Of a stretch of DNA of 57,303 nucleotides, positions 21,588 through 52,406 are shown piece by piece; positions within the stretch are counted from its first letter, which is position 1, and each line of letters begins with the position of its first letter. The translations under genes and the position numbers were made by a program. The stretch is taken from the NCBI GenBank assembly GCA_018056245.1, contig JAGPFZ010000009.1, positions 1 to 57,303 on the forward strand, in the 5' to 3' direction. This stretch comes from Bacteroidales bacterium. GTDB lineage: Bacteria; Bacteroidota; Bacteroidia; Bacteroidales; VadinHA17. Below the pieces are notes generated by a model, which was not told the origin of the DNA, searched no databases, and saw nothing but the letters and a program-made list of their open reading frames with translations.

Positions 21588-21634
21588 ATAATTTAATTTT
21601 TAAATAGCTTCACATGTAATCTAAATTGAATAAA

Positions 21635-22720
21635 ATGACGACAAACAGTAAAAATGGAAAAAGTTTATCCAGACGTAAGTTTCTGGGGACTACAGCTGTT
21701 GCAGCATCATCTGTCTTTTTTGTTCCATCATTATTCGGGCGTGAAGGATATACTGCACAGCAGAAAGTTTTAAAACCAAATTCAAAATTCGGAGGCGTTC
21801 AGATAGGTGCTATAACCTATAGCTGGCGTGATATGCCTGGCGGTGTTGAGAATATAATCAAATATTGTCAGGAAGCCGGTGTAAGTTCAGTTGAGTTAAT
21901 GAGCAATGACCTTGAGATGTATCTCGGTGCACCTCAGAACCCTATGATGAGACAACCCATGCAGCGGCCTGCTGCTACTCCAAACCCTCCTGCTCCACCG
22001 GCAAATGTGCCTGCAGGCGCTCCATAGGCAGGAGGACAAAGACCTCAACGTACACCTGAACAGGAAGCCGCTATCGCAAAATATAATCAGGAGCTTAAGG
22101 CATGGAGAACATCTTTACCAATGTCTAAAGTTGAACAGGCCAAAAAATTATTCAACGATGCAGGTATTAGCGTACATATAGTCAAGTTCTCTCCGTCACG
22201 CTGGTCGGACGAGGAGATTGATTATGCATTCAGAGTTGCAAAAGCCATGGGTGCAAAAGGCGTTACCGAAGAAATCGGTGAAAAAGCAGTGAAAAGATTG
22301 GCTCCATTCGCCGAAAAAAACAAATCGTATGCAATCTTCCACAATCACATGCAGTTTGCAACACCCGGCTTTAGTTACGACCCCTTCCTTAAAGTATCAC
22401 CTGCCGTAATGATGAATTTTGATGCCGGACACTTCTTCGGTTCAACAGGAATACATCCGAACGAAATTATAAAAAAATACCACGACCGCATTGCAAGTAT
22501 TCACATTAAGGATAAGACAGGACCAAAAAGCAATCCACCAAACACAAATACCGAATGGGGAAAAGGCGAAACACCTATTGCCGATGTGCTTCTCCTTCTT
22601 AAAAAGGAAAAATGGCCTATTAATGTTGATATTGAACTTGAATATCGAATACCTCAGGGTTCAGACTCAGTAAAAGAAGTAAAAAAATGTATTGAATTCT
22701 GCAGAAATATTCTGGCTTAA
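21635..22720 (+). pseudogene. Tat-exported TIM-barrel protein interrupted by an in-frame TAG
   Basis: I start at ATG 21635. A Tat signal (SRRKFLGTTAVAA) leads to IGAITYSWRDMPGGVENI and VSSVELMSNDLEMYLG, then a Pro/Ala/Gln-rich linker. A TAG at 22025-22027 falls inside this linker. Reading straight through it in the same frame gives AGGQRPQRTPEQEAAIAKY and the rest of the barrel: AIFHNHMQF, MNFDAGHFFG, IHIKDKTG and DIELEYRI as metal-ligand regions. The linker followed by a TPEQ helix is usual in this Bacteroidota subfamily, so this is one gene of about 361 codons with one stop, most simply a CAG to TAG change. The C-terminal half could restart at ATG 22121, but it would lack export. Confidence 0.85.
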
Positions 22721-23139: not shown

Positions 23140-25209
23140 TTATTTAATTCTGATTACAATTTCATCATATTTTCGCGCCATATCAGGATTTGAGATTCGG
23201 TAAGAATCAGCCAGTGCCATAAGTGCCGGTTTATATGCAGGATTAATTTCCAGACATTGTCTTAATATTTTTCTTGCCTGCTCTACATCCTTTCTGCCCG
23301 TTACTTCAGCCAGTTTCACGTAAGCCTCAAAGTATTTCCGGTTAAAATTAATTAGCTTTTCGAAATATCCCTCAGCTTTATCGAATTCACCTTTTGAAAC
23401 TGAAATAATTCCTGCATACATCAATGCCGGTTCAAAGAACGGATTAATTTCCAAACATTTATTAAGCACTGAATCTGCCTTAACCGAATCTCTCAATCTG
23501 TTAAGCGCAACTGCAAAATTATAAAAAATCATTTCATCACAACTGTCTTCTAATAGAGCTTTAGAGAAAAGTTTTACTGCATCTCCGGGTCTGTTTTCCT
23601 GTAAAGCCCTAAATGCCTTATAATCAGCTTTCGATTTTCTTTTAATTACCGTGCATATCGGTGCCTCACCGGCATAAACTACTTTAAGAGCACCGGCAGG
23701 AGGCCATAATCCTTCCTTTAACCTGAAAGGCAATATATATCTATTTGTTGAAATATAATAATCCCAGTCGTAAGTACTCCTTTCTTCATTTCTGATATAA
23801 ATATTTTTAATAAACGGTTGATTACGGAAATACCATTCAGCTGAAAAATTTGAAGCGACTATTATGCTGTCTTGAATTCCTTTGTCTTCGAGATATTCAG
23901 TCAACCATTCCGAAGCTTCACGTTGCCCTATAAAATAATAATCCATTTCATAATTCCCATTTGCCCCTTTAACACCGCCAACAAGCTGATTAAAATATAA
24001 ATATGCATACCTGTAATTGACAGCCAGAAATTTAACTACATGAAATGATGAGGCAAAGAGTAAAAGTATACAAAACCATTTAACGTATTTTTTTGTTTGT
24101 AATTTAAATATAACTGAAATACCTACAGCCGAAAGTATTACTATTCCCGGATATAAAAACATGAATTGTCTCCACCCGCTATAAATATTCGGTCGGGATA
24201 ATATGGTGTAGAATAAAGGAAAAAATATGCTGAAAATAAGGAAGAAATATGGCAGACACTTTCCGTTACGAAAAATCTTTGGCGAAAAGAATATAAACAG
24301 AAGCAAACCGGCAGTAACCGTAACAGGTATTGTAATCAACATATATTTGGGCAGATAGTGCCACGGCATATAATCGGTCCATTCCACTCTGCCTTCAAAT
24401 ATTTCTCTGAAAGTGAGTGGAAATCTGCTCATGAAAAGATGGGCTTTAACCGGATTGATTACAGGGTTCTGTAATCCATAAGGCCATAAAACAACACTCA
24501 GAAACCATCCTGCTGCCGAAATTATTGCAATCAGAAAAAATTTTCCAGCTAACGCATTGATATTACTCCCTTTCCCATTAATATATTTTATAAGTTCATC
24601 TATAAAAAAGAAAAAGAAAAGATAACAAATCAGAATCATACCACTTGATCTTATACTCATACAGAAAGCTATGCTAAGTGCAAGCAAAACACCGTGTACA
24701 ACTGGAATTTTCTTTTCAGATGATAAAAACCTTATGATAAAAAATACGCCTGAGATATAGCCTAGTGCAAAGGGGATATCCTTAAGATTATTCTGAGAAT
24801 GGCCAAGAAATGTGGAAGATATTGCAAACAGCAGAATTACTATTATCCCCGCTTCATACCCTGAAAGCTTAACCGCAAAAAATACAGTTATAATAATTGT
24901 GAGCCATCCGGCCAGAGTGGCCATAATATGACGGAAACCATAAATATCTTCAACGCCGAACAGCTTGATAAGAAAGGTTGTGATATTGTCGTATGACTGT
25001 CCGTAATATTTAAGGTGAGTGCCGGGAGTATAGAGACATGATCTGTCCTGACCATGTGTTACAAAATAGTTATAAACCGATACTGACTGGTTATAATGAA
25101 GCACTTCGTCACAGCTAACGCCTGCCTTCTTGCTTCCATAGAGCATAGCGACAAGAAGGGCAAAAGAAAGAACCGGGAGAACAAACTTATACCGTATTGT
25201 GCTCATCAT
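23140..25209 (-). CDS. GT-C membrane glycosyltransferase with C-terminal TPR repeats
   Basis: A 689-aa protein. The N-terminal 500 residues have about 11-12 membrane segments with a periplasmic acidic motif (GVSCDEVLHYNQS) after the first segment, as in GT39/GT83-type enzymes that use polyprenyl-phosphate sugars. FLGHSQNNLKDIPFALGY is the second conserved region. From about residue 540 to the end there are TPR-type helices (FNPFFEPAL..., EGYFEKLINFNRKYFEAYV..., INPAYKPALMALADSY). Its start overlaps the stop of the GT2 gene by ATGA, a translational coupling. It probably transfers the sugar that the GT2 enzyme loads onto the lipid carrier; the acceptor is unknown. Confidence 0.85.
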   Translation of the reverse strand: MMSTIRYKFVLPVLSFALLVAMLYGSKKAGVSCDEVLHYNQSVSVYNYFVTHGQDRSCLYTPGTHLKYYGQSYDNITTFLIKLFGVEDIYGFRHIMATLAGWLTIIITVFFAVKLSGYEAGIIVILLFAISSTFLGHSQNNLKDIPFALGYISGVFFIIRFLSSEKKIPVVHGVLLALSIAFCMSIRSSGMILICYLFFFFFIDELIKYINGKGSNINALAGKFFLIAIISAAGWFLSVVLWPYGLQNPVINPVKAHLFMSRFPLTFREIFEGRVEWTDYMPWHYLPKYMLITIPVTVTAGLLLFIFFSPKIFRNGKCLPYFFLIFSIFFPLFYTILSRPNIYSGWRQFMFLYPGIVILSAVGISVIFKLQTKKYVKWFCILLLFASSFHVVKFLAVNYRYAYLYFNQLVGGVKGANGNYEMDYYFIGQREASEWLTEYLEDKGIQDSIIVASNFSAEWYFRNQPFIKNIYIRNEERSTYDWDYYISTNRYILPFRLKEGLWPPAGALKVVYAGEAPICTVIKRKSKADYKAFRALQENRPGDAVKLFSKALLEDSCDEMIFYNFAVALNRLRDSVKADSVLNKCLEINPFFEPALMYAGIISVSKGEFDKAEGYFEKLINFNRKYFEAYVKLAEVTGRKDVEQARKILRQCLEINPAYKPALMALADSYRISNPDMARKYDEIVIRIK

Positions 25210-26135
25210 GCATCGAATGTACCTCCATAAAAATTCTTTACGAAATACACCGGTCTATTTTGCGATTCCTTATAACCCCGGTAAACATATTCTCCAATTA
25301 TTCCCAGGAAAATAAGTTGAACCGAACCGAGAAAATATATACTGAGAAGTGTTGATGACCAACCCGGCATAGCCAGATGTGCAGCTTGTCCCACAAGTAC
25401 AATTATTCCAGCAACCATGAAAACTATTACTCCGATAATTCCAAGAAAATAGCATACCTGCAATGGAAATTTCGAGAATGAGAAAATTGCATCACATGCC
25501 AGTCTTAATAGTTTCTTTATAGTCATTTTAGACTTACCGGTAAATCGTTCATCCCTAATGTAATCAACATATCCCTGTTTGAAACCAATATAAGAGCGTA
25601 TTCCCGGTAAATAACGCATATTTTCTCCGAATGAAATTATAGCATTTACTGCGCATCGCTTCATCATTGAAAAATTACCTGCATTCTCAACATTTTTTAA
25701 TCCGGTAATTTTCTTAAAAAGAAAATGAAATATGGACATACAAACCTTCCTCTGCAGCTTTTCTTTTCTGGCTTTTTTCCGGCCATTAACTACATCATAT
25801 CCTTCAGTACAGATTCTTTTGTACATCTCGGGCAGGATTTCGGGGGGGTCTTGAAGATCTCCGTCCATCATTGCCACAATATCCCCGGATGCATGTTCGA
25901 GACCAGCAGTATAGGCTATCTGATGGCCGAAATTTCTCGATAAAGAGAGGATTTTAATTCGCGGGTTTTTATTCCGGAATGAGAGAAGTGTATCCAGACT
26001 TTTGTCGGTACTCCCGTCGTCAACAAATATTATTTCATAATTATCTATAAATGATTCTATTGCAGGGACAGTTCTTTTAATAAGCTCTTCCAGAACCTCT
26101 TCTTCATTATATATTGGAATAACAACAGATAACAT
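25206..26135 (-). CDS. GT2 polyprenyl-phosphate glycosyltransferase (GtrB/DPM1-like)
   Basis: A 309-aa protein: GT-A fold start LSVVIPIYNEEEVLEEL, the FVDDGSTDKS motif, the metal-binding MDGDLQDPPE and the RDERFTGKSKM motif of dolichyl/undecaprenyl-phosphate sugar synthases. Two C-terminal membrane helices (about 230-290) follow. It transfers a sugar from a nucleotide donor to undecaprenyl phosphate on the cytoplasmic side. Direct coupling (4-base overlap) to the GT-C gene supports a two-step lipid-linked sugar pathway. Confidence 0.9.
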   Translation of the reverse strand: MLSVVIPIYNEEEVLEELIKRTVPAIESFIDNYEIIFVDDGSTDKSLDTLLSFRNKNPRIKILSLSRNFGHQIAYTAGLEHASGDIVAMMDGDLQDPPEILPEMYKRICTEGYDVVNGRKKARKEKLQRKVCMSIFHFLFKKITGLKNVENAGNFSMMKRCAVNAIISFGENMRYLPGIRSYIGFKQGYVDYIRDERFTGKSKMTIKKLLRLACDAIFSFSKFPLQVCYFLGIIGVIVFMVAGIIVLVGQAAHLAMPGWSSTLLSIYFLGSVQLIFLGIIGEYVYRGYKESQNRPVYFVKNFYGGTFDA

Positions 26136-26252: not shown

Positions 26253-27461
26253 TTATTTAATTCCCAGTCGCTCAAGCGCAAAACTAACTTCATCTTTTAA
26301 TTCAGGCACCGATTGCAGATTTCTGATAGCAGGAATACAATAATCGGTTCCCATCCAGCTCAGCTCACGCAAAACAAGTTTCTTTGCCTCAAATGTAGCC
26401 GAACTGTTATTAAGAACACCGGTCATCAATTTCTCTATTTCAAGGAGTTTTTCCTTATCGCCTGCCGCCCGCCTAATATATTCCTGAAGGCCAGTATAGT
26501 ATTTTGTACTTTTCCCTATATCATAATTCACAAGGCCAGCAATATCCTCCTCAAGAGAAAGATATTTATAATCTTTTCTAATAGAAACACCTGCAGCGCT
26601 TGGGAAATCGGGAGGGATGCTCTGTGTCACATTCCCTGATGCAGCCCATTCAGTACCTCGTTGAAAAGTAGTAATAAAACCTGCGCATTTCAAGGAGGGG
26701 CTTTCTTCTCCTTCCGGATACCCGAGTGTTGTATGAAACACTCTTCCCTTCCCGTAATTAATAGTCATCATAACAGGTTCGTGTCTTCCTGTGCCATTTC
26801 CGGTAGTGTCGCAGAAAGCTGTGGCCAGTACCTCGAGATTCTTTGCCGGCCCCCTCATTTTTGCATAAAGAAGATCGCTACCATGCATCCATCTTACTGG
26901 TAAGCCTTTCATTACAGGATGTTCCATATTACGCGTTCTTACTTCAAATTCCCTGACTTTGCCATACCATCCAGCCTTGACCGGGGTAGTGTCGGTAACC
27001 ATCCGGCCATCCTTGAAATAAACGTATGGTCTGTTCAATTCTGATCTCCCTCCCCAGCCGGTTAAACCGCATATTTCTTCATATTCTTTCCAGCCAGGAA
27101 ATGCTGATGAGGCTGAATGATAAACAACTACTCCACCTCCGTCAGATACGTAATTAACAAAAGCCTTTTTTGTATCCTCTGACCATGAATCACCGGAGTA
27201 ATTAAGTACTACTACATTGTATTTGCTAAAAGAAGGCTTAAAACCCTTCATATCACCTCCTTTTTCCGGTGATATTGCTATGTCAACTCTGAAAAGGCCG
27301 GTTTGTTCCAGTATCTGTCTAAGGACCGGTGTGCTAACTTTCCAATTGGTCGTATTTTGTCCGGTTACAATTAAAGCTCTATATGGCATACTTTTCTGGC
27401 ATGCTATCAATATTAACATTACTATGCATGCTATTATTGCGAAAAATTTCGTTTTTTTCAT
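26253..27461 (-). CDS. ThuA-like domain lipoprotein
   Basis: I start at the ATG at 27459-27461 (MKKTKFF), 11 bases after the upstream gene, because it opens a lipoprotein signal (lipobox LIAC). An upstream in-frame start would overlap the Gfo gene. The domain is ThuA-like (class I glutamine amidotransferase fold): ALIVTGQNTTNW, NYSGDSWSEDTKKAF, DGGGVVVYHSASSAFPGW, then RNMEHPVMKGLP and GKGRVFHTTLGYPEG. A helical C-terminal extension (about 300-400) resembles repeat-type scaffolds. ThuA proteins partner Gfo/Idh/MocA (ThuB-type) dehydrogenases in 3-keto-sugar metabolism, as in the thuAB genes of rhizobia, and this one follows two such genes. Confidence 0.82.
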   Translation of the reverse strand: MKKTKFFAIIACIVMLILIACQKSMPYRALIVTGQNTTNWKVSTPVLRQILEQTGLFRVDIAISPEKGGDMKGFKPSFSKYNVVVLNYSGDSWSEDTKKAFVNYVSDGGGVVVYHSASSAFPGWKEYEEICGLTGWGGRSELNRPYVYFKDGRMVTDTTPVKAGWYGKVREFEVRTRNMEHPVMKGLPVRWMHGSDLLYAKMRGPAKNLEVLATAFCDTTGNGTGRHEPVMMTINYGKGRVFHTTLGYPEGEESPSLKCAGFITTFQRGTEWAASGNVTQSIPPDFPSAAGVSIRKDYKYLSLEEDIAGLVNYDIGKSTKYYTGLQEYIRRAAGDKEKLLEIEKLMTGVLNNSSATFEAKKLVLRELSWMGTDYCIPAIRNLQSVPELKDEVSFALERLGIK

Positions 27462-27472
27462 TGATTTGTGGT

Positions 27473-28786
27473 TTAAACTATTGGTAATGTCCATGGTTTT
27501 CTGAGTGGGCGGCCCATTAAACGACTTGCTTCCTGATTGTCAATTATTTCTTCCTTTTCGGGGTCCCATTTTATTTTTTGGCCGGTTGTCATTGCAATTT
27601 CTCCTAGCAAAGCTACAGATATTGCCCGGTAAGCAGGTTCAATCGGGCAAATAGTCTCTTTGCGTGAGCGTATGCAATCTATGAAATTATGGTAATGATT
27701 ATTACTTTTATAAAGATGTATCTCATCACCTTTTATCTTTTCCTCAAGTATTTTCGGGTTGGAAGCACTAATTTTGTTTCTGCGGTCTACATGTATCCAT
27801 CCAAGGTCGCCATACCAGCATGTCCCCATGCCCTTTGGAAGCCGTGAAGCATTGGCTACTCTCATTTCCATTCCATCAGCATATTTGCACAATATATCAT
27901 ATTCAACAGGAGCATTATAAATTCCTTCAACAGGGTAAACTCCGTTCCCCTCTATTTCAATCGGGCCAGTGTGCTCCAGACCTGCTCCCCAGTTTGCAAT
28001 ATCAATATGATGTCCGGCCCAGTCGGTGAGTTGTCCGCCCGAATAATCGAGTATCCATCTCCAATTCCAGTGACATACTCCGCGATATGGTACCCAAAGA
28101 GCAGGGCCGAGCCACATGTCCCAGTTTAGTTCTTTCGGAACTTCCTGTAACGGTGGAGTTCCTATCCCTCTTTCACCGTCGGGAAGCCCTACTTCAATAT
28201 ATTTTATCTTTCCTATTCTTCCATTTGCAACCAGTTCGGCCCCATGATGGAAATTCTCCTGCGACCGCTGCCAGCTTCCAGTCTGCCAAATAATTCCATT
28301 CTTCTTAACTGCACTGACAATAACCTTTCCTTCATTGATTGTACGGCATATTGGTTTTTCGCCATATACATCCCATTTTTTCATTGCTGCTTCTGTATAG
28401 ATAATACCATGCCAATGATCGGGAAGAGCTATAAGCACTGCATCAAGATTTTCTTTGTCTATAAACTCCCTGAAGTCGGCATAAATCCTGCAGTCCCTGC
28501 TTCTATTGACCTTATCTACCGTTTCCTTTGCTGCTGCAAGCCTTGAAGCATCAACATCACATAGCGCTACGAAACGGGTCTGATCTTTTAGCCTCATAAA
28601 GTCTCTCATATCGCTCATGCCCTGTGAACCTGTTCCTATAACACCCATAACTATACGATCGGAAGGAGGTATTTCACCTCCACGTCCCAAAGATGAAGCC
28701 GGTACAATATAAGGAACGACAAAAGTTCCGGCTATTGCAGAAGCAGATTTTTTTAAGAAATCCCTTCTTGATGTTTTCGTTTCCAT
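27473..28786 (-). CDS. Tat-exported Gfo/Idh/MocA oxidoreductase
   Basis: A 437-aa protein with a Tat signal (SRRDFLKKSASAIAG). Rossmann motif MGVIGTGSQGMSDM, family motif YGEKPICRT preceded by ALPDHWHG, and catalytic-region DWAGHHIDIANWG. The DHWH and GEKP pair is typical of the exported Bacteroidota/Planctomycetota subfamily. It lies 34 bases after another Tat-exported member and 11 bases before the ThuA-like gene, so all are made together. Confidence 0.87.
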   Translation of the reverse strand: METKTSRRDFLKKSASAIAGTFVVPYIVPASSLGRGGEIPPSDRIVMGVIGTGSQGMSDMRDFMRLKDQTRFVALCDVDASRLAAAKETVDKVNRSRDCRIYADFREFIDKENLDAVLIALPDHWHGIIYTEAAMKKWDVYGEKPICRTINEGKVIVSAVKKNGIIWQTGSWQRSQENFHHGAELVANGRIGKIKYIEVGLPDGERGIGTPPLQEVPKELNWDMWLGPALWVPYRGVCHWNWRWILDYSGGQLTDWAGHHIDIANWGAGLEHTGPIEIEGNGVYPVEGIYNAPVEYDILCKYADGMEMRVANASRLPKGMGTCWYGDLGWIHVDRRNKISASNPKILEEKIKGDEIHLYKSNNHYHNFIDCIRSRKETICPIEPAYRAISVALLGEIAMTTGQKIKWDPEKEEIIDNQEASRLMGRPLRKPWTLPIV

Positions 28787-28820: not shown

Positions 28821-30158
28821 TCATATTTGAACAGGCAGGCCGGGCACAGGGACCTCAAATTTCATATCAACCGGCCCGAATTCTATTTTTGACGGGCCGA
28901 GGTTCATGTCAGATTTAAGTATTTCGTCCCATGTTATCATCCTGCCAGTATATGCAGCAGTTCTTCCCATTATTGCGGTCAGTGTAGAAATTGCGGTTTG
29001 TTCCGCTTCATTAACGTAATTACCGGTTCGGATAGCCCATACCAGATGCATGTGTTCCTGCACATAGGCAGGAATTTTCAAGGAATTTGTGGGATTATTG
29101 TTCTCATCTTTTGGGTATTCGAATTTCCATTTAATATTTCCGTCGAGGTCCCAGATAATATTCTGGCAGTTAGTATATCCTTCGGTTCCAACCACTATTT
29201 CGCCTGTGCCGTTTGCACATCCGTCTATCTGCCTGCACATGCTGTGACTACTAAGGCCGTTGCCATAACTAAAATCAATACTGAAAAAATCATACTGGTC
29301 GCCTGTAACACGTCGGTGTCTTCCTCCGTAACCTATTGCACTTTCAGGATGTTTTCCCGTGAACCAGTTTATTACATCAATATTATGTACATGGGTATCA
29401 AGAATATGGTCGCCTGAAAGCCAGCAGAAATTATTCCAGTTACGTATCATATATTCCATGTCGTTCCATCCGGGCTCTCTTAGCCGGAACCAGACATGTT
29501 CCTGGTTCCAGTAAGCTTTTGCAGATGTAATACGTCCGATAGCACCTGCTGTTACCTGCTTGTATGTTTCGATATAATCTTCCTGATGGCGTCTTTGTGT
29601 GCCGGTAACCACATTGAGGCCTATTGCTTCGGCTTTCTTTGCTGTAGTAAGTATTGACCTTATTCCTGTAGAATCCACTGCAACAGGTTTTTCCATGAAG
29701 ACGTGTTTGTTTCTGGTCACTGCTTCAAGGAAATGTTCAGGTCGGAATTTCGGAGGTGTTGCTAGTAGTACAACATCAATATCCTCGATAGCCATGAGTT
29801 TTTTATAAGCATCGAATCCTACGAAACAGTTTTCTGCTGGAATAGGTAATCCGAAGGAAGCAAAGCGTTCTCTGCATGCATCAATTTTATCCTGGAAAAC
29901 ATCGGCCAGTGCAATAATCTCAAGGTCTGGACCTGCGCTGATAAAATTTATTGCAGCACCTGTTCCGCGGCCTCCAGCTCCTACCAGGCCAGCTCTGAGT
30001 TTTTTGCCCGGAGGTGCTCCGTTAAGAATAGGAGGCAGTACAGTAGGTTCTGCTATCCTCTTTCGTCCGCATCCGGTCATTATTGCACCTGCACCAGCCA
30101 GACCAATACTTGCTGCAGCAGCTTTTTTGATGAATTTTCTTCTATCGAAATTTTCCAT
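28821..30158 (-). CDS. Tat-exported, probably lipid-anchored Gfo/Idh/MocA oxidoreductase
   Basis: A 445-aa protein whose Tat signal (DRRKFIKKAAAA) ends in a lipobox-like IMTGC, so it is probably a Tat lipoprotein. Rossmann motif GLVGAGGRGTGAAINFI; family motif FMEKPVAVD; later HILDTHVHNIDVINW as catalytic region. Only 7 bases separate it from the cytochrome-SUMF1 gene upstream, so those two are the most tightly coupled pair in the operon. Sequence does not reveal the substrate. Confidence 0.87.
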   Translation of the reverse strand: MENFDRRKFIKKAAAASIGLAGAGAIMTGCGRKRIAEPTVLPPILNGAPPGKKLRAGLVGAGGRGTGAAINFISAGPDLEIIALADVFQDKIDACRERFASFGLPIPAENCFVGFDAYKKLMAIEDIDVVLLATPPKFRPEHFLEAVTRNKHVFMEKPVAVDSTGIRSILTTAKKAEAIGLNVVTGTQRRHQEDYIETYKQVTAGAIGRITSAKAYWNQEHVWFRLREPGWNDMEYMIRNWNNFCWLSGDHILDTHVHNIDVINWFTGKHPESAIGYGGRHRRVTGDQYDFFSIDFSYGNGLSSHSMCRQIDGCANGTGEIVVGTEGYTNCQNIIWDLDGNIKWKFEYPKDENNNPTNSLKIPAYVQEHMHLVWAIRTGNYVNEAEQTAISTLTAIMGRTAAYTGRMITWDEILKSDMNLGPSKIEFGPVDMKFEVPVPGLPVQI

Positions 30159-30165: not shown

Positions 30166-31701
30166 TTATTTCTTAGATATTATTAAACTGTCAGGCTGAC
30201 ATACTACTCTAAATCCCACATCAATACAATCGGAGTACCACCAGATACTTTTAGGCATTTGCGGGTCAGTTATTAACCATATATCGGTTTTTGTAAAATC
30301 ACGTGCAGCACTTCTCACATCTTTTGCGTCACTCTTGAATGAACCTCCTCTAATAACTCTTTCCTTTCCTTCTGCAGGCCCTCGTGGGTTTATATAAACA
30401 GTATCATTTTTATAAGCATCAGCAGAATAATAGTCAGAGCAGAACTCTGCAACGTTTCCTGACATATTTTTTATTCCAAACGGATTGGCTTTGACTGCCG
30501 AAGGCTCAGCCGTTCTGTAATTGCTATTTTCCTTATATATAACATAAGAAGCAATAACGGTAGTATCCGGCTTTAAAATTTTCTTCATAAATCCTTCTGA
30601 AGAAAACTTTTCTGGATTGCCCTCAAAGAAATATGGAGTGGAAGTACCGCCTCTGCATGCATATTCCCATTCTGCTTCTGTTGGCAGGCGGTAATATTTA
30701 CCTGTTTTTTGCGAAAGCCATTTGCAGTAAACATTCGCAGCATTCCATGTCATTGTTATTGCCGGACGTGAGCCTTTACCCCAGCCCTGGTCGGGAGCTC
30801 CCCATGGAGGAGTCGGACCTGTAATGGCATCAACGTTTTTTGTTGTAACTACCTGTCCTTCCGTCCTCCCCTGAGAAGAAGTAGCCTGGAAAAAAGCAAG
30901 ATATTCATCCCATGTAACCTCTACTTCGCCTATCCAGAAAGGAGATACCGTAACTTCCCTTACAGGGCCTTCATCATCCTCGCGCAGAGGTTCATCGTCA
31001 GGACTGCCCATATCAAATTTTCCGCCCGGAACCGCTATCATATTAAATGTAACTCCTGTGCCGGGAATACGCTCGATAAAATTTTCAAATTTTTCAACTT
31101 TTGCAGGCTCGGTGTAAACAATCGCAGTTTCAGTTTTAATAACTCCAAAAGTTGTGTCTTTCGCATGTTTAATATTTTTATCAAAATGGCCTACTTCAAT
31201 ATGACAGTTAATACATTGCAAAGATTCTTTGTTTAAGGTATAAAACAGATGGGCATTCCCTCCGTCTTCGGATAATGTTACAGGAAACAGGTTAGTATGA
31301 CATTCAAGGCATGATTCCTCATAAACAATTTTTTTTGCATTTTCAGGAAGTCTTTTTGCCTCCCAGTTAAAATCAGAACTATCCTTAAACCAGTATCCAT
31401 AAATATCCTTTATTCCATGCTTCACTTTGGTTAAAAGATATCCTTTGCCTTTTGGAGCGAGATGACATTCAATACAATGTGTTTTTACGCCCGAATTATT
31501 GTTATAATGAGTTGATAGTTTCCACGTCTGTTCAGCGTGTGGATGAATATGGCATGACATACAATATTCATCGGTCGAAGTATAAGAGATTGCCTTATCT
31601 CCAACTATTATAAATATTATACAAACAATAGCTCCTGCAAAAAAAATCCAGACAGATGATTTATTTTTTTTTGATTGTCTGGTTATTTTGATTTTATTCA
31701 T
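30166..31701 (-). CDS. Tetraheme NapC/NrfH-type cytochrome c fused to a SUMF1-like domain
   Basis: A 511-aa protein. One membrane anchor (residues about 18-35) is followed by four c-type heme sites: CMSCH (47-51), CIECH (76-80), CLECH (131-135) and CINCH (163-167). Anchor plus four hemes matches the NapC/NirT/NrfH quinol dehydrogenases. From about residue 215 to the end is a SUMF1/formylglycine-generating-enzyme-type domain (GGKFDMGSPDDEP, GEVEVTWDEYLAFF, YRLPTEAEWEYACRGG, GNVAEFCSDYY, RVIRGGSF). The two catalytic cysteines of true FGE, expected just after GGS, are absent (KSDAKDV), so it is not a sulfatase-maturing FGE. The whole soluble part is periplasmic. It heads the coupled Gfo-Gfo-ThuA genes. 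Role unknown. Confidence 0.88.
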   Translation of the reverse strand: MNKIKITRQSKKNKSSVWIFFAGAIVCIIFIIVGDKAISYTSTDEYCMSCHIHPHAEQTWKLSTHYNNNSGVKTHCIECHLAPKGKGYLLTKVKHGIKDIYGYWFKDSSDFNWEAKRLPENAKKIVYEESCLECHTNLFPVTLSEDGGNAHLFYTLNKESLQCINCHIEVGHFDKNIKHAKDTTFGVIKTETAIVYTEPAKVEKFENFIERIPGTGVTFNMIAVPGGKFDMGSPDDEPLREDDEGPVREVTVSPFWIGEVEVTWDEYLAFFQATSSQGRTEGQVVTTKNVDAITGPTPPWGAPDQGWGKGSRPAITMTWNAANVYCKWLSQKTGKYYRLPTEAEWEYACRGGTSTPYFFEGNPEKFSSEGFMKKILKPDTTVIASYVIYKENSNYRTAEPSAVKANPFGIKNMSGNVAEFCSDYYSADAYKNDTVYINPRGPAEGKERVIRGGSFKSDAKDVRSAARDFTKTDIWLITDPQMPKSIWWYSDCIDVGFRVVCQPDSLIISKK

Positions 31702-35238: not shown

Positions 35239-37065
35239 ATGAAAATAAAACTTAGAAGTTCTATCTCGACACAGGGAAGGATTATGGCCGGAGCAAGAAG
35301 CCTCTGGCGGGCAAATGGAATGAAGGAAGAGCAATTTGGAAAACCCATATTTGCCGTTGTTAATTCTTTCTCTCAATTAGCTCCAGGTCATGTGCATCTG
35401 CAGAAAGCCGGCGAAATAATAAGAAATCATATCAGAAATCAGGGTTTTTTTGCTGCGGAATTCAATACCATTGCAATTGATGACGGCATTGCAATGGGGC
35501 ATAATGGAATGCTCTACTCTCTCCCGTCTCGTGAACTAATCGCCGACAGTATTGAATATATGATAAATGCTCACATGGTCGATGCCATGATATGTATCAC
35601 TAACTGCGATAAAATCACACCCGGTATGCTGATGGCTGCAATGAGGCTAAATATCCCTACTGTTATTGTATCGGGAGGCCCGATGGAAGCAGGCTTACAT
35701 AACAACACATATATAGATCTTATAGATGCAATGGTTGCCGCTGCCGATAATAATGTAAGCGAAATGGAACTTCTTCAGATTGAAAAATCTGCGTGTCCTA
35801 CTTGCGGCTCATGTTCAGGGATGTTTACAGCAAACTCCATGAACTGCCTCTCCGAAGCAATTGGTCTTGCTCTCCCTGGTAACGGAACGGTGCTCGCTAC
35901 TCATAAAAACAGACACTTGCTTTTTGAAAAAGCTGCTGATACAATCATAAAAAATACAATAAAATATTATTACGATGGAGACGAATCTGTATTACCACGT
36001 TCAATAGCAACAAAAGAAGCGTTTATGAATGCTATGGCACTTGATATTGCTATGGGCGGGTCAACAAACACTGTATTACATCTTCTCGCAATAGCCCGTG
36101 AAGCAGAAGTTGATTTTACCATGAATGACATTGACGGTCTCTCGCGCAAAATACCCAATATCTGTAAAGTGGCACCAAGTTCAAGTTACCATGTACAGGA
36201 TGTAAACCGCGCAGGTGGGATACTTTCTATAATGGGAGAACTTGAAAGAAACAACCTTATAAACTCTACCGTAAAAAGAGTTGATTACCCTTCTCTGCAT
36301 GATGCAATATCTGAATGGGATATCTTGAGTGAAAAAGTGATTCCGCTGGCAATTCAGTTTTATAAAAGTGCCCCTTCGACAGAAAAAAGTTCGGAAGGTG
36401 GTTTCAGTAATTCAATCTATAAAGAATTGGATACAAATCGTCATTCCGGTTGTATCAGAGACATAAATCATGCATACACAAGCGATGGAGGCCTTGCTGT
36501 TTTGTACGGAAATATTGCATCAAAAGGCTGTATTGTAAAAACAGCCGGAGTGGATCAGTCACTTTTTACATTCAGAGGTCAGGCAATAATTTTTGATTCG
36601 CAGGAAGAAGCTGTATCAGGAATACTTGAAGGAAAAGTCAAACCTGGCGATGTTGTGGTGATAAGGTTCGAAGGACCTAAAGGAGGACCAGGAATGCAGG
36701 AAATGCTCTATCCTACTTCTTACCTCAAATCGAAAGGACTTGGTACAAAATGTGCACTGATAACCGACGGACGTTTCTCAGGCGGAACAGCAGGATTATC
36801 AATAGGTCATATTTCTCCTGAAGCCGCCTCAGGCGGCGAAATCGCTCTTCTGCATCAGGGAGATATTATCGACATCAATATCCCTGAAAGAACAATAAAT
36901 GTTTTACTCGATAATGCCGAAATCGAAAGACGCCGGAAACAAGAAGAAGAGAAAGGGCCCGAGGCATGGAAACCGATTTCGAGGGAAAGAAAAATACCTG
37001 CTTCGCTCAGGGCTTATGCAGCACATGTATCCTCAGCCGATATGGGAGCGGTAAGAATAATATAA
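35239..37065 (+). CDS. ilvD: Dihydroxy-acid dehydratase
   Basis: A 608-aa protein dehydrating 2,3-dihydroxy acids to 2-oxo acids in Ile/Val synthesis. Visible: the cluster-binding region [33 protein letters not shown] (Fe-S cysteines) and [13 protein letters not shown]; then VDPSLFTF-type [12 protein letters not shown] and [12 protein letters not shown] with GHISPEAA near the end. Length matches Bacteroidota IlvD. It is the first structural gene after the attenuator, in the order D-B-N-C-leuA. Confidence 0.95.
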
Positions 37066-37088
37066 GACAAAAGATATAAGACAAAAGA
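37061..37088. repeat. 14-bp perfect tandem duplication between ilvD and ilvB
   Basis: TATAAGACAAAAGA occurs twice in a row (37061-37074, 37075-37088), then TAAAAGATAAAC. It starts within the last codons of ilvD and fills most of the 40-base gap to ilvB. It resembles the other A-rich tandem units at 19174 and 53031. Confidence 0.85.
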
Positions 37089-37105
37089 TAAAAGATAAAC
37101 ATTTT

Positions 37106-38836
37106 ATGTCTGATAAAGAGAAAAAATATTTCGATGGGAATGGTTCTGACCAGATCGCAGGAGCAGAAGCGGTTCTCAGGAGCCTGATAGCTGAAGGTGT
37201 AGATACCATTTTCGGCTATCCGGGCGGTGCAATAATACCAATTTACGACTACCTGTTGAATTTTCAGGATAAAATAAGACATATACTTGCACGCCACGAG
37301 CAGGGAGCAGCACATGCTGCGCAGGCTTACGCAATGGTAACAGGAAAGCCGGGTGTTTGCTTTACAACTTCAGGACCAGGCGCGACAAACCTTATAACAG
37401 GAATTGCCAATGCATATCTCGATTCTGTACCGGTTATTTTCATAACAGCACAGGTCGTTTCCAACCTTATCGGTACCGATGCATTCCAGGAAACAGATAT
37501 AATTGGTATTTCAATGCCAATAACCAAATGGAATTGCCAGGTAAAAAGAGCCGATGATATTCCTTCAGCAATTGCCAGGGCATTTTATATTGCAACTACA
37601 GGCAGGCCAGGTCCTGTTTTGCTCGATATTACAAAAGATGCCCAGACTGAGAAATTGAATTTCAATTACAAAAAATGTACTTACATCAGAAGTTACCATC
37701 CACACAAGCCTTTGAAAACAAAAGAAATTGAATCGGCTGCAATACTTATAAATCATGCTGAAAGACCATTGATTATGGCAGGCCACGGAGTACTAATCTC
37801 TAAAGCTGAAAAAGAGCTCAGAGAGTTTGCTGAAAAAGCAAATATTCCTGTTGCCGTAACACTTCTCGGCCTTTCATGCTTCCCTACTAATCACAAACTT
37901 TATGTCGGGCTGCTCGGGATGCATGGAAATGTAGGCCCAAATAAGCTCACTAACGAGGCAGATTTGATAATAGCTATAGGCATGCGATTCGACGACCGTG
38001 TTACCGGCGATTTAATGAGATATGCACCACAGGCAAAAATTATCCACATAGAAATTGACGAAGCTGAAATAAACAAAAACGTTAATGTAGATATCGAAAT
38101 AAACAATGATGCCGCTGAAGTTCTGAGATATCTTATCCCTCTCGTAAATCAGAATTCACACGAACGATGGATAAGAGAATTCAGGGTGTGCGACAAAATA
38201 GAATATGACACGGTAATAAAGCCGGAAATTAAACCCACATCGGGACCTATTAAAATGGGAGAAGTAGTAAATGCTATATCAGAACTTACACAGGGAAATT
38301 CAATAATTGTGACAGATGTGGGACAAAACCAGATGTCGGTAGCTCGTTATTACAAATTCACAGAACCAAACACCTTTGTCACATCAGGAGGCATGGGAAC
38401 AATGGGTTTCGGACTGCCCGCTTCAATAGGAGCAAAAATAGGAAAACCCGATAAACAGGTGATTGCCTTTCTTGGCGATGGCGGTTTCCAGATGACAATA
38501 CAGGAACTTGGTACTATATTACATTATAAGATACCGGTCAAATTAATAATTCTCAACAACTTTTTCCTCGGCATGGTAAGGCAATGGCAGGATATGTTCT
38601 TCAACAAAAGATATGCATCAACCGAACTTGTAAACCCTGATTTCATTAAAGTCGCCGAAGGATACAACATTTCAGGGAAACGAGTATCAACAAGAGAAGA
38701 ACTTATACCGGCAATAAATACGATGCTCAATTGCGAAGGTGCCTATCTGCTCGAAGTAATGGTAGAAAAGGAAGGCACTGTTCTGCCGATGGTGGAACCT
38801 GGAGATTCAGTATCGGAAGTAAAAATTACAAAATAA
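37106..38836 (+). CDS. ilvB: Acetolactate synthase large subunit (biosynthetic)
   Basis: A 576-aa ThDP enzyme. FGYPGGAIIPIYDYL and HEQGAAHAAQAYA (with the cofactor-activating Glu), the GPGATNLITGIANAYLDSVP motif, and the ThDP-binding GDGGFQMTIQEL...NNFFLGMVRQWQD. It makes acetolactate or acetohydroxybutyrate from pyruvate. It overlaps the start of ilvN by one base (TAATG), as expected for a two-subunit enzyme. Confidence 0.95.
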   Translation: MSDKEKKYFDGNGSDQIAGAEAVLRSLIAEGVDTIFGYPGGAIIPIYDYLLNFQDKIRHILARHEQGAAHAAQAYAMVTGKPGVCFTTSGPGATNLITGIANAYLDSVPVIFITAQVVSNLIGTDAFQETDIIGISMPITKWNCQVKRADDIPSAIARAFYIATTGRPGPVLLDITKDAQTEKLNFNYKKCTYIRSYHPHKPLKTKEIESAAILINHAERPLIMAGHGVLISKAEKELREFAEKANIPVAVTLLGLSCFPTNHKLYVGLLGMHGNVGPNKLTNEADLIIAIGMRFDDRVTGDLMRYAPQAKIIHIEIDEAEINKNVNVDIEINNDAAEVLRYLIPLVNQNSHERWIREFRVCDKIEYDTVIKPEIKPTSGPIKMGEVVNAISELTQGNSIIVTDVGQNQMSVARYYKFTEPNTFVTSGGMGTMGFGLPASIGAKIGKPDKQVIAFLGDGGFQMTIQELGTILHYKIPVKLIILNNFFLGMVRQWQDMFFNKRYASTELVNPDFIKVAEGYNISGKRVSTREELIPAINTMLNCEGAYLLEVMVEKEGTVLPMVEPGDSVSEVKITK

Positions 38837-39402
38837 TGAAAAAAGAATTCACGCTTTCAATTTTTTCAGAGAATCGAATTGGAATTCTCAATCAGATAAC
38901 GATCATTCTGACACGCAGGCAGATTAACATCGAGAGTGTCACCTCTTCAGAATCTGCAGTAAAAGGAATCCAGCTTATAACCCTTGTCGTCAGAACAACA
39001 GACGATATGATAAGAAAAGTCGCACGACAAATAGAAAAAATAATAGATGTAATAAAAGTCTTCGTTCATAACCCTGAAGAAATAGTCTATCAAGAAATTG
39101 CACTATTCAAGGTATCAACAAAATCTCTTCTTACGGGAGACATAATTGACCACCTTGTCAGATCGCATAATATTAGATTTCTTGATATTACTTCCGAATA
39201 CATGGTCATTGAAAAAACCGGACATAAAAATGAAATAATTCGACTTCTTAACGAACTCGAACCTTTCGGCATTCTGCAATATGCCCGATCGGGCAGGGTG
39301 GCAATCACAAAACAGGTAAAAGAGCTGAATGCTTATCTTAAAGAAATAGATGAAATCATTAACAATGAAAATGAAAAAGAAGAATTTGAAATGATTAAAT
39401 AA
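38836..39402 (+). CDS. ilvN: Acetolactate synthase small (regulatory) subunit
   Basis: I start at ATG 38836, which overlaps the ilvB stop by one base (TAATG). This gives the usual ACT-domain N-terminus (MKKEFTLSIFSENRIGILNQ). A longer in-frame start exists inside ilvB but would add a non-homologous tail. The 188-aa protein has an N-terminal ACT domain (1-75, including RQINIESVT) and a C-terminal valine-responsive domain (80-160, ELALFKV-like EIALFKVS and FGILQYARSGRVAI). Confidence 0.92.
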   Translation: MKKEFTLSIFSENRIGILNQITIILTRRQINIESVTSSESAVKGIQLITLVVRTTDDMIRKVARQIEKIIDVIKVFVHNPEEIVYQEIALFKVSTKSLLTGDIIDHLVRSHNIRFLDITSEYMVIEKTGHKNEIIRLLNELEPFGILQYARSGRVAITKQVKELNAYLKEIDEIINNENEKEEFEMIK

Positions 39403-39509
39403 CTAACAAATAATTCCCGGTGTTCAATTTCCCATATTAAAACAGGCTTTTTGACCTGTCGGGAGGTTGAATCAGACCGAGTAATGTAAAACCAATAAAA
39501 CTAATAAAT

Positions 39510-40559
39510 ATGGCAAAAATTGATTTTGGTGGTGTTATCGAAGATGTAGTTACAAGAGAAGAGTTTCCTCTCTCGAAAGCACGCGAAGTGCTTAAAAATG
39601 AACTTATTGCAGTAATAGGCTATGGAGTTCAGGGTCCTGCGCAAGCCCTTAATATGAAAGATAATGGCTTGAATGTTATTGTAGGTCAAGCACCTGAGTT
39701 CAAAAATGACTGGGACAGAGCAGTCTCTGATGGATTTGTTCCTGGAAAAACTCTTTTTCCTATTAACGAAGCTGCTTCCAAAGGAACAATTATCATGTAC
39801 CTCGTTTCCGATGCGGCACAGAGAATACTCTGGCCCGAACTGAAAAAATGCCTCAAAAAGGGTGATGCTCTATATTTCTCACACGGCTTTTCAATAACTT
39901 ACAAGGAGCAAACCGGAGTTATACCTCCTCCGGATATTGATGTTATTCTTGTCGCTCCTAAAGGCTCAGGAACAAGCGTGCGTCGCAATTTCCTTGCCGG
40001 AACAGGTATAAACTCGAGTTATTCTGTTTACCAGGATTATACGGGGAAAGCCACTGAAAGAGTGCTGGCACTCGGTATTGCCATAGGCTCGGGTTATCTT
40101 TTCCCAACAACTTTCGAAAAAGAAGTCTATAGTGACCTTACCGGAGAACGCGGCGTACTTATGGGCGCACTTGCAGGAATTATGGATGCACAATATCAAG
40201 TACTTAGAGAGAACGGACACTCACCTTCAGAAGCTTTCAATGAAACAGTGGAAGAGCTTACACAAAGTCTAATCCGACTTGTTGATGAAAAAGGTATGGA
40301 TTATATGTATGCAAACTGTAGTGCAACTGCTCAGCGGGGTGCTCTCGACTGGAGGCCAAGATTCAGGGACGCTGTCCTGCCTGTGTTCAAAGAGCTGTAT
40401 GAAAAGGTGAAAACAGGAAAAGAAACGGAAAGAGTTATACAGGCACTGAGTAATTCGAATTATAAAGATATTCTCGATGCCGAACTGAAAGAACTACGGG
40501 ATTCCGAAATGTGGAAAGCAGGAGCTGCCGTAAGGAAATTAAGACCCGGTAATAAATAA
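39510..40559 (+). CDS. ilvC: Ketol-acid reductoisomerase
   Basis: A 349-aa protein with the Rossmann motif AVIGYGVQGPAQALNMKDNG, LVAPKGSGTSVRR, and the metal-binding DLTGERGVLMGALAGI and VEELTQSLIRLVDEKGMDYM. It converts acetohydroxy acids to dihydroxy acids. It is the class I length (about 330-350). It sits 107 bases after ilvN with no clear promoter, so it is read from the operon. Confidence 0.95.
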   Translation: MAKIDFGGVIEDVVTREEFPLSKAREVLKNELIAVIGYGVQGPAQALNMKDNGLNVIVGQAPEFKNDWDRAVSDGFVPGKTLFPINEAASKGTIIMYLVSDAAQRILWPELKKCLKKGDALYFSHGFSITYKEQTGVIPPPDIDVILVAPKGSGTSVRRNFLAGTGINSSYSVYQDYTGKATERVLALGIAIGSGYLFPTTFEKEVYSDLTGERGVLMGALAGIMDAQYQVLRENGHSPSEAFNETVEELTQSLIRLVDEKGMDYMYANCSATAQRGALDWRPRFRDAVLPVFKELYEKVKTGKETERVIQALSNSNYKDILDAELKELRDSEMWKAGAAVRKLRPGNK

Positions 40560-40571
40560 ATATAAAAGATA

Positions 40572-42065
40572 ATGGAAGAGAAAATAATTATTTTCGATAC
40601 CACACTGCGCGATGGTGAGCAAGTTCCTGGTTGCCAGCTCAATACTATAGAAAAAATTCAGGTGGCAAAAGCTCTTGAAGAACTTGGCGTTGATGTTATC
40701 GAAGCCGGCTTTCCTGTTTCCAGCCCGGGTGATTTTAACTCAGTGGTCGAAATATCCAAGTCAATATCAGAACCAATTATCTGTGCACTTACCCGAGCAG
40801 TGAAAAAAGACATTGAGGTGGCTGCTGAATCCCTTCAGTATGCAAAACGCAAAAGAATTCATACCGGAATCGGAGTCTCTCCTTATCATATCGAATACAA
40901 ACTTAAAACAACACCCGATGAAATAATCAAAAGAGCATCAGATGCTGTCAGATATGCAAGGAAATTCGTTGATGATGTCGAATTCTATGCTGAAGATGCA
41001 GGAAGGACTGATAACGAATATCTTGCGAAAGTGATCGAAACAGTAATAGATGCAGGTGCCACTGTAGTAAATATACCGGATACAACGGGATATTGCCTCC
41101 CTGTTGAATACAGCGAAAAAATCAAATATCTAAAGGACAATGTCCCAAACATAGATAAGGCCGTCATTTCCACCCACTGTCATAACGACCTCGGAATGGC
41201 AACTGCAAATACAATCATGGGAATCCTGAACGGAGCACGTCAAGTTGAAGTTACAATAAACGGCGTGGGCGAAAGAGCAGGCAATACATCCCTCGAAGAG
41301 GTTGTAATGACGTTGAAAAGCCACAAAAATCTAAACTTTGTGACCGGCATCAACACCCAGCTTATCTACAAAACCAGCCGTCTTATCTCAACCCTGATGA
41401 ATATGCCCATCCAGGCAAACAAGGCAATTGTCGGACGTAATGCATTCGCACACTCTTCGGGAATTCACCAGGACGGCGTACTGAAGAAAAGAGAAAATTA
41501 CGAAATTATCAATCCTGTTGAGGTCGGTGTGAGAGAATCGTCTATCATCCTTTCGGCACGCAGCGGACGGGCAGCTCTTAACCACAGACTCGAACTTCTC
41601 GGATACAAATTCAACAAGGAAGAGCTTGATAATATATATTACCGTTTCCTTAAACTGGCCGACAGGAAGAAAATAGTAAATGACGATGATATTAGAATAC
41701 TTGTCGGTGAGGTGGCCCAGGGTGAAAAACCTCTCCGACTCGAACATCTTCAAGTATCATGTGGTAAATCATTAATCCCTGTTGCTGTCGTTGGCCTCTG
41801 GATAAATGGAGAAATTCACACTGCAACTGCAACTGGAAATGGTCCCATAGATTCTGCATTTACTGCGGTACGACAGCTTATTAATAAAACGATACATCTC
41901 GAAGAATTTCTTATTCAGGCAATTACAAGAGGTAGCGACGATATCGGAAAAGTACATATACAAATTGAACATCAAGGGAAAATATATTACGGATTCTCTG
42001 CTAACACCGATATCATTACAGCCTCGGTTGAAGCTTTAATTGATGCAATAGCTAAAATTAAGTAA
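40572..42065 (+). CDS. leuA: 2-isopropylmalate synthase
   Basis: A 497-aa enzyme: [19 protein letters not shown] at the N-terminus, [12 protein letters not shown] (metal His), [17 protein letters not shown], and [16 protein letters not shown], followed by the leucine-regulatory domain (about 395-497). It joins acetyl-CoA and 2-oxoisovalerate, the first leucine step. It starts 12 bases after ilvC. Confidence 0.95.
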
Positions 42066-42078
42066 AATATTTTCATTT

Positions 42079-43476
42079 ATGAGTTCAAGAACTCTTTTTG
42101 ACAAAATATGGGATAATCACATCGTCTATTCAATCGAAGGTGGACCCGATGTCCTCTATATCGATACGCATTACATTCACGAAGTGACCAGCCCACAGGC
42201 TTTTAACGGACTGAGAAATAGAGGTATAAAAGTGTTTCGACCTGAAAGAACTATCGCAACTGTCGATCATAATATTCCTACAAAAGATCAGCACCTGCCA
42301 ATACGAGATGAAATTTCAAGAAACCAGGTCGAAACTCTCGAGAAAAACTGCAGGGAGTTCGGGATAACGTTTTTCGGAATGCAACATCCCAATAATGGAA
42401 TCGTCCATGTTATTGGTCCAGAACTTGGTTTTACTCGACCAGGTATGACGATAGTATGCGGCGACAGCCACACATCAACCCATGGCGCTTTCGGTTCAAT
42501 TGCTTTCGGAATCGGCACTTCAGAAGTGGAAATGGTGCTTGCTTCCCAATGCATCCTCCAAAACCGACCTCGTGTGATGAGAATAAGTGTAAATGGTACA
42601 CTTCCACATGGAGTCACTGCTAAAGACATAATAATGTTTATCATCTCCCGCCTTTCCTCCGGCGGAGCCACAGGCTATTTTATAGAATATGCCGGGTCGG
42701 CTATAGAAAGCCTCAGTATGGAAGGCAGAATGACTGTGTGTAATATGAGTATCGAAATGGGAGCACGTGGAGGTCTTATCGCACCCGATAAAAAAACGAT
42801 CGAATACATTAAAAAAAGTTCAAAAATATCAGGTATTGAAACCACAGAAAATGAAATCAGAAATTGGGAAAATCTTAAATCAGACCATGAAGCCAATTTT
42901 GATAGGGAAGTGGAATTTGACGCAGGCGAAATAAAACCTATGATTACATTTGGAACAAACCCAGGAATGGCAATATCAGTTGATGCTATTATCCCTGAAC
43001 CTCCCGAAAATGAAAAAGAAGCAATATCATTCATGAAAGCTCTTGAATATATGGGCTTTAAACCAGGCATGAAACTCGAAGGTCATAAGATAGATTATGT
43101 TTTCCTCGGTAGTTGTACCAATGGACGTATTGAGGATTTCAGAGCATTTGCCTCGATTATCAAAGGAAGAAAAAAATCTCCCGATGTAACTGCATTGATA
43201 GTCCCGGGTTCAAAAAGAGTTGAAGCTCAAATTTTCGAAGAAGGCCTTGATAAAATATACAGAGAAGCCGGTTTTGAAATACGCCAACCCGGATGTTCAT
43301 CATGCCTTGCGATGAACGATGATAAAATACCTGCAGGAAAATATTCTGTTTCAACTTCAAACAGAAATTTTGAGGGCAGGCAGGGCCCGGGCGCCAGAAC
43401 AATACTTGCAAGCCCTCTTACTGCAGCCGCATGCGCCATAACCGGTGAAATAACCGATCCACGAAATTTCTTATAA
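42079..43476 (+). CDS. leuC: 3-isopropylmalate dehydratase large subunit
   Basis: A 465-aa aconitase-superfamily protein. [38 protein letters not shown], and the iron-sulfur cysteines in [12 protein letters not shown] and [10 protein letters not shown]. It pairs with LeuD, which starts 19 bases downstream. It can also hydrate citramalate, which matters given the second LeuA-type gene. Confidence 0.95.
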
Positions 43477-43495
43477 CAATTTTAATCAGAAAACA

Positions 43496-45648: not shown

Positions 45649-45702
45649 TAATAAGGGAAAAATCATTTCTTTTAAACAATAAAATCAAATAATAATAAAT
45701 TC

Positions 45703-50441: not shown

Positions 50442-50452
50442 AATTCTTTGCC

Positions 50453-51262: not shown

Positions 51263-51264
51263 AA

Positions 51265-51578: not shown

Positions 51579-51594
51579 CATCTGCTTAAAATTT

Positions 51595-51940: not shown

Positions 51941-51980
51941 TATCATTTTTGGATTGAAAAGATATGATTTAACATTTTTT

Positions 51981-52355: not shown

Positions 52356-52406
52356 CTATACAAGGAAAAAGAATTCTTAAGAAATTTTCATTTTCTTTAA
52401 GAAAAT

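Follow-up and report, generated by a model that had tools for sequence, protein, structure and literature searches.

A tetraheme NapC/NrfH-like cytochrome fused to a SUMF1-like domain is paired with a secreted-type Gfo/Idh/MocA gene in Bacteroidota

Introduction

What is the role of a membrane-anchored tetraheme cytochrome whose C-terminal half is a SUMF1-like domain without the cysteines of FGE, and why is its gene followed so closely by one for an oxidoreductase of the Gfo/Idh/MocA type? Both questions are raised by 57,303 nt of contig sequence from a Bacteroidales bacterium, hereafter the window, meaning the whole stretch of DNA that was analysed. Exported Gfo/Idh/MocA (Gfo) enzymes are common in Bacteroidota and Planctomycetota. 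A full-text literature search on this architecture, covering mostly openly readable papers, gave no description of it among the matches listed.

Results and discussion

A tetraheme cytochrome joined to a SUMF1-like domain

The fusion gene (30166..31701, minus strand, as are all features of this locus given below) encodes 511 residues from ATG to stop, and no plus-strand frame of 80 or more residues overlaps it. A sequence-only reading of this DNA had described a membrane anchor, four CxxCH sites starting at residues 47, 76, 131 and 163, and a SUMF1-type domain, all of which were confirmed by Pfam, motif and hydropathy analyses. The protein has a single strong hydrophobic segment at about residues 13-34, within which a transmembrane segment is predicted at residues 16-34 (31600..31656; hydropathy maximum 2.7 at residue 16). 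PF03264 (NapC/NirT) matches residues 12-173 with an E-value of 3.7e-26 (92.4 bits against a cut-off of 24.1), and PF03781 (FGE-sulfatase) matches residues 220-468 with an E-value of 1.3e-44 (153.3 bits against 23.3). Since relatives align up to about residue 500, we delimit the SUMF1-like domain as residues 220-498 (30208..31044). The first heme site, residues 47-51 (31549..31563), is followed by H53, and the second, third and fourth, at residues 76-80 (31462..31476), 131-135 (31297..31311) and 163-167 (31201..31215), are each invariant in 19 aligned rows.

The fusion recurs in Bacteroidota

The sequence-only reading had proposed searching other genomes for the same order of domains, cytochrome then SUMF1. 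In a scan of one genome per species (84,980 species), 18 fusions with four CxxCH sites were found among the best 80 of at least 586 stretches (L006-L022 and L066, with L022 cut by a contig end). Their identity with the window protein is 51-69% over the best segment, and by record title they come from 16 Bacteroidota metagenome-assembled genomes (MAGs), from Maribellus sp. YY47 and from one MAG labelled KSB1 (L019). The window's own genome holds a second copy, a paralogue 58% identical over residues 18-505, and 3/395 genomes of the phylum (the window's own included) carry fusions with E-values of 1.2e-225 or better. The order thus recurs in at least 22 fusions, window included, nearly all from Bacteroidota, and given the 21 further copies a chance fusion or an assembly error was rejected. 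As a separate observation, the L019 fusion, which is followed by the beginning of a Gfo gene, sits in a MAG labelled candidate division KSB1, which may reflect inter-phylum transfer or a binning error.

A tree of 106 SUMF1 domains, built by a quick method with SH-aLRT support only, placed 21 tetraheme rows on one side of a branch with a support of 99. Twelve relatives, mostly from Verrucomicrobiota by record title, carry one or two CxxCH sites of another type (L034, L035, L038, L039, L046, L049, L051, L053, L057 and L075-L077), which proved to be PSCyt1 in all six of the twelve scanned with Pfam. On the SUMF1 tree these 12 rows need at least four changes, of which the well-supported branches force only one. 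The PSCyt1-bearing relatives are a separate cytochrome fusion within the same SUMF1 subfamily.

The SUMF1 subfamily is paired with a secreted-type Gfo gene

In the window a gene for a Gfo protein with a Tat-type twin-arginine start (28821..30158; PF01408) lies 7 nt after the fusion gene. Pairing in other loci was assessed by tblastn with six Gfo queries, two from fusion loci and four from loci of relatives, counting a Gfo gene when it lay no more than 1.5 kb downstream and on the same strand, in loci offering at least 500 nt of room. By this measure 17 of 20 fusions with room are followed by a Gfo gene (16/19 without the window itself); the paralogue is the 18th of 20 (17/19 without the window) at a limit of 3.2 kb, which it needs because a transposase-like frame, recognised by eye, intervenes. 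Fusion and Gfo are separated by 7-150 nt in the 17 loci and by 1485 nt in the paralogue. The sequence-only reading had asked whether the fusion always sits beside secreted Gfo/Idh/MocA genes, which holds for most loci but not for L018 and L066, where a gene of 1040-1055 residues follows instead; we read it as SusC because a SusD-family gene stands behind it in L066. Two more fusions, L014 and L022, had no room for the test. The transposase-like frame of the paralogous locus (L091, 6465-6977; own genome, C27) lies on the opposite strand between fusion and Gfo, and the operon looks interrupted there.

The same arrangement was found for solo (unfused) relatives, with a Gfo gene downstream in 59/76 (50/67, plus 9/9 counted apart: L114, L115 and L119-L125). 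Among the 50, 48 Gfo genes lie within 500 nt of the SUMF1 match, and L028, one of the 17 solo misses, has a Gfo one gene further on. For the relatives with one to three CxxCH sites the count was 3/11 with room. None of the 19 controls with room had a Gfo downstream, these controls being SUMF1-family proteins with weaker matches to the same profile, a narrow set with 17/20 from one bacterial family. As a base rate, 22/409 other frames of at least 150 residues in related loci are followed by a same-strand Gfo match. Six query loci match themselves (W, L020, L023, L037, L039 and L055), and when they were excluded the counts became 16/18 for fusions (with the wider limit for L091), 2/10 for the relatives with other hemes and 47/64 for solos, plus the 9/9 counted apart. 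Left out of all counts were L001 and L002 (which duplicate the window and L091), L003-L005 (weak matches to the SUMF1 family from the window's own genome), and L086-L090, L092-L113 and L116-L118 (superfluous, or short copies of L126-L145 or of the window).

That this SUMF1 subfamily pairs with a secreted-type Gfo is a firm, well-supported result. Since the pair extends far beyond the heme fusion, the heme part characterises a single clade, and the tetraheme fusion is a clade-level variant of the wider SUMF1-Gfo pair, a breadth absent from the sequence-only reading. A separate same-strand cytochrome gene is not a regular neighbour of the solo loci; CxxCH proteins were seen by eye near a few of them, for example L054, L059 and L032.

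The Gfo partners are predicted to be exported

The window's partner matches PF01408 with 57.3 bits (cut-off 24). In the 68 partners compared (71 minus three cut or short ones), G60, G62, E156, K157 (the EKP lysine), H258 and D261 are kept in 68/68, and the motif RRx[FLIV] occurs within the first 45 residues in 66/68, which points to a twin-arginine signal and predicts export. Among solved structures, inositol dehydrogenases come nearest to the window's partner, followed by DgpA and aldose-aldose oxidoreductase (AAOR), all of them distant (best E-value 2.2e-12), and an NCBIfam equivalog cut-off was passed by 0 of 4 partners scanned. The partner thus shares its superfamily with DgpA, AAOR and GFOR, of which GFOR and AAOR are also stated, in the passages describing them, to carry a Tat signal. 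According to those passages, DgpA recycles its NADH with a 3-oxo sugar (PMC11239390), and GFOR and AAOR use two sugars; a membrane cytochrome partner is absent from them.

The Gfo partners of the fusions form one clade (SH-aLRT 100; 17 rows, the cut L019 partner being left out) in a tree that carried long-branch warnings. Distances between SUMF1 domains correlate with distances between partners (rho 0.55 over 67 pairs, the top of 500 permutations being 0.17), a comparison that ignores species kinship. A tree of the 68 partners with 31 non-partner Gfo proteins required five label changes and came with long-branch warnings, so we make no claim that all partners form one subfamily. We propose that the SUMF1-like domain may be a dedicated periplasmic partner of the Tat-exported Gfo sugar oxidoreductase encoded directly downstream.

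A SUMF1 subfamily with its own loop and without FGE cysteines

Residues 457 and 462, which by alignment to the human motif we take to be the FGE catalytic cysteine positions, are S and V in the window protein (30316..30333), and all 21 fusions that reach the site lack both cysteines, bearing out the earlier view that they had been lost. Among paired non-fused relatives the first cysteine is present in 0/52 and the second in 6/52, against 1/20 and 16/20 in the controls. The earlier statement that the window holds no sulfatase also stands, none being found among the 26 frames scanned with Pfam, with the other frames read as translations. These results bear on the idea that the protein is a formylglycine-generating-type maturase, acting on a sulfatase or on the Gfo partner itself. 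The window protein does share the SUMF1 fold and the Pfam family with FGE, and FGE structures are its best PDB matches; but it differs in the two missing cysteines, in an extra loop and in having an oxidoreductase rather than a sulfatase as its neighbour, and such a maturase is hardly credible here. We dropped FGE-type maturation on the missing catalytic cysteines.

The extra loop, W475..D479-P-Q-x-P-x-S-x-W487 (30238..30279), is absent from the control SUMF1 proteins. Each of its seven residues is conserved in at least 69 of the 70 paired domains; among the 20 controls, W475, P480, Q481, P483, S485 and W487 occur in none and D479 in three. The shorter pattern DPQxPxSx[WF] was found in 70/71 relatives with a Gfo downstream (the sole miss, L027, is a wrongly cut 57-residue frame), in 0/20 controls and also in 21/27 relatives without a Gfo, indicating that the loop marks the subfamily and not adjacency itself.

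A more serious rival is that the SUMF1-like domain itself oxidises the same sugar, before or after the Gfo step, with the hemes accepting the electrons, so that the two proteins would share a pathway and form no complex. The comparison that lends this weight is with PvdO, a proposed oxidising enzyme of SUMF1 fold and the nearest solved structure by sequence to the solo relative L023 (E-value 1.2e-29). PvdO (PDB 5hha) has in common with the window protein the fold and the absence of Cys from the aligned FGE-cysteine stretch; it is likewise periplasmic, is described as showing neither a detectable cofactor nor activity after purification, with a possible need for an electron transport system (PMC6206403). 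That cytochromes of two different Pfam families are fused to SUMF1 domains would also suit a redox domain. The resemblance is distant, however: PvdO is the second-best NCBIfam match of the window protein at 102 bits (137 bits for L023), far below its cut-off of 500, and the best PDB scores of the window protein are with FGE structures, not PvdO. PvdO also comes without a heme domain, and the alignment stops before the DPQxPxSxW loop with 19 of 286 chain residues left. No His is invariant in the SUMF1 domain across fusions, which leaves no hint of a metal site in this domain, and only three of the five cysteines counted (C326, C421 and C501) come close to invariance. We judge an oxidising SUMF1 domain to be unlikely, if well worth weighing, and favour its role as a dedicated partner of the Gfo protein. 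The pairing provides a handle on a large SUMF1 subfamily known here only by its fold, and on PvdO, for which a review (PMC6206403) describes the electron route as still to be clarified.

Conserved heme and quinone-site residues in the NrfH-like domain

Eight His residues, the four in CxxCH together with H53, H65, H151 and H172, are identical in 22/22 fusions, and the four extra ones would be enough to give all four hemes bis-His ligation. W60, D99, K106, W113 and N137 are likewise identical in 22/22, and K92 is kept in 21/22. A profile of 18 heme domains matches NrfH of D. vulgaris (PDB 2j7a) with an E-value of 1.6e-9, in an alignment that places K92 opposite NrfH K82, D99 opposite D89 and H53 opposite M49. 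In NrfH, through which interaction with the quinone pool is possible, Lys82 and Asp89 are described as conserved (PMC4683180). The fusion therefore has in common with the NrfH/NapC-NirT proteins an N-terminal anchor, four CxxCH sites and the K82/D89 equivalents, but differs in its CxxCHxH, in place of CxxCHxM, at heme 1 and in being joined to SUMF1. It is not NrfH proper, scoring 68.2 bits against the cut-off of 134.2 of the NrfH equivalog TIGR03153, and an NrfA above cut-off was not found in the window's genome (PF02335 reached only 18.2 bits). In the 395 genomes of the phylum, all four close matches to the heme domain (E-value 1.2e-68 or better) are fusions; the other 37 start at 2e-15, with 35 in frames of 164-226 residues and the two remaining ones in frames of 683 and 700 residues.

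This conservation has to be set against the reading in which the SUMF1-like domain is a mere scaffold or glycan-binding holder of the Gfo, with the NrfH-like part serving mainly as an anchor or for some other contact. The PDB matches include SUMF1-fold proteins whose roles lie in binding or structure, namely PorK/GldK and the Treponema variable protein, and the solo forms, which lack CxxCH, would suit a holder as well. Yet four CxxCH sites, four more His residues, D99 and K92 would be needless for a plain anchor, and we find this reading distinctly improbable beside that of an electron-carrying partner. Membership of the GldK/PorK family as such was rejected (112.2 bits against the TIGR03525 cut-off of 350).

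The window's genome (2.17 Mb, 83.8% complete) encodes a CcsB-type cytochrome maturation protein that just exceeds its cut-off (188.8 against 187.6 bits) and a UbiA-like prenyltransferase that passes the TIGR01475 cut-off and also has MqnP-type matches, these falling below their own cut-offs; menA, cytochrome bd and COX1 were not found in this 83.8%-complete genome. Two more complete fusion genomes have menA and one of these also has COX1, and quinone coupling in the host is possible, judging from these genes. The quinone-linked periplasmic redox role put forward by the sequence-only reading draws support, at the level of sequence, from the K82/D89 equivalents and from CcsB. COX1 was present in 20/20 solo genomes and in 1/3 fusion genomes (Fisher p 0.012, kinship ignored), and a split between aerobic and anaerobic hosts was dropped as the genomes were too few. 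The same organism encodes a second multiheme protein (L095, 964-2340; own genome, C13), of 458 residues and cytochrome c554-type by Pfam, adjoining a frame whose translation resembles an outer-membrane protein and has a CxxCH close to the start, possibly another electron route.

Neighbouring genes suggest glycoside C3 oxidation

Behind the partner follow a second Tat-type Gfo gene (27473..28786; best NCBIfam match BT_2158_fam, below cut-off) and a gene for a ThuA-domain protein (26253..27494; identified by Pfam in the window copy). The ThuA cluster follows in 7/20 clustered fusion loci, window included, always behind two Gfo genes. Further on, a GT2 glycosyltransferase (25206..26135) and a TPR-repeat protein that by eye resembles a membrane glycosyltransferase (23140..25209) are clustered in the same 5/20 fusion loci, with GT2 probably a neighbouring function. 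Elsewhere, L011 has a 3-keto-disaccharide hydrolase (PF06439) and, upstream, an alpha-L-rhamnosidase; the locus of the window genome's own paralogue also has a TIM barrel, a BNR protein and a lactonase; and PF01261 TIM barrels lie near the fusions of L012, L020 and L021 and, among the solo loci scanned, between or behind the SUMF1-Gfo pair in L063 and L073. Within the window there are five Gfo genes and four PF01261 frames.

A TIM-barrel beta-eliminase is described as acting on 3-keto-glycosides, with a Gfo oxidoreductase in the same operon (PMC10628242), and a periplasmic 3-ketolactose pathway has been proposed (PMC9007349). Taken with these descriptions, the keto-sugar genes and TIM barrels suggest glycoside C3 oxidation as the likeliest chemistry of the pair. 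The lactose 3-dehydrogenase of the LacABC type is comparable by its description, being likewise a membrane-bound system for periplasmic glycoside C3 oxidation (PMC9007349).

A candidate route from bound NADH to the quinone pool

Starting from what is seen directly, namely the fusion, the gene pairing, the subfamily loop and the conserved heme-site and quinone-site residues, we propose that in the window's clade the SUMF1-like partner of the Gfo is wired to the quinone pool through an NrfH-like tetraheme cytochrome with a quinone-type site, which would be anchored in the inner membrane. Once exported to the periplasm, the Gfo would use non-dissociating NAD to oxidise a sugar or glycoside there, in the manner of DgpA acting on its own substrates, and its bound NADH would be reoxidised without a second sugar, electrons leaving by contact with the fusion protein, through its covalently attached hemes, to (mena)quinone. 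We give this electron-transfer reading, with the SUMF1-like domain as a dedicated partner of the periplasmic Gfo, a probability of roughly 45%.

The precedent for bound cofactor is DgpA of Dorea, which is reported to contain nearly equimolar NAD(H) when purified and to regenerate NAD by reducing an added 3-oxo sugar, so that its bound NADH needs an added oxidant (PMC11239390). A periplasmic Gfo would presumably have no access to cytoplasmic NADH oxidation, which makes the neighbouring membrane tetraheme protein the obvious electron outlet. Several observations weigh against the mechanism. Gfo proteins of the same kind are also paired with solo relatives, which have no CxxCH, so the pair can work heme-free; no flavin or other two-to-one electron converter was seen; L018 and L066 have no Gfo and the other heme-fused relatives reach only 3/11; and menA and the two oxidases were not found in the incomplete host genome.

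Flow in the reverse direction, from quinol through the hemes to a reductive step on a keto-sugar or on bound NAD, would agree with the quinol-oxidising side on which NapC/NrfH proteins are described. Reduction of NAD by menaquinol is uphill, though, and the bound NADH of DgpA is filled by sugar oxidation (PMC11239390), which leaves reverse flow as a long shot.

If electrons do run from sugar to quinone, the pair could represent a new class of respiratory sugar dehydrogenase, in which a periplasmic NAD-holding Gfo has its cofactor recycled by the quinone pool through a SUMF1 docking domain and a tetraheme relay; we consider this broader claim possible though doubtful. Glycoside respiration by anaerobes could then take place outside the cytoplasm with no need for free NADH, flavin or PQQ, and the SUMF1 family would gain a task as an electron-transfer adaptor, acquired separately with NrfH-like and with PSCyt1 hemes. 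More generally, an exported Gfo has to dispose of the electrons of bound NAD when no second sugar serves, for which the heme partner offers a testable answer in one clade, and the SUMF1-Gfo pairing names the partner gene in many further clades.

Other features of the window

Two frames at 21626-22027 and 22121-22720 may be parts of a single secreted protein that is perhaps frameshifted or carries an odd insert, the first having a twin-arginine-like start and a Pro/Gln-rich tail and the second being a TIM-barrel fragment (PF01261). The segments 218-1916 and 2260-2997 hold a transposase (DUF772 match) broken into two frames and, beside it, a 245-residue frame that resembles, by eye, the end of a TonB/SusC-type receptor. 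An arsenic-type cluster was recognised by eye at 49395-53562, with an ACR3-like permease, an ArsM-like methyltransferase (a methyltransferase by Pfam), a small phosphatase-like frame and two ArsR-like regulators, and FeoB following it. Finally, an ilv/leu operon for branched-chain amino acids, with two genes for LeuA-type synthases, was likewise recognised by eye at 35239-46764.
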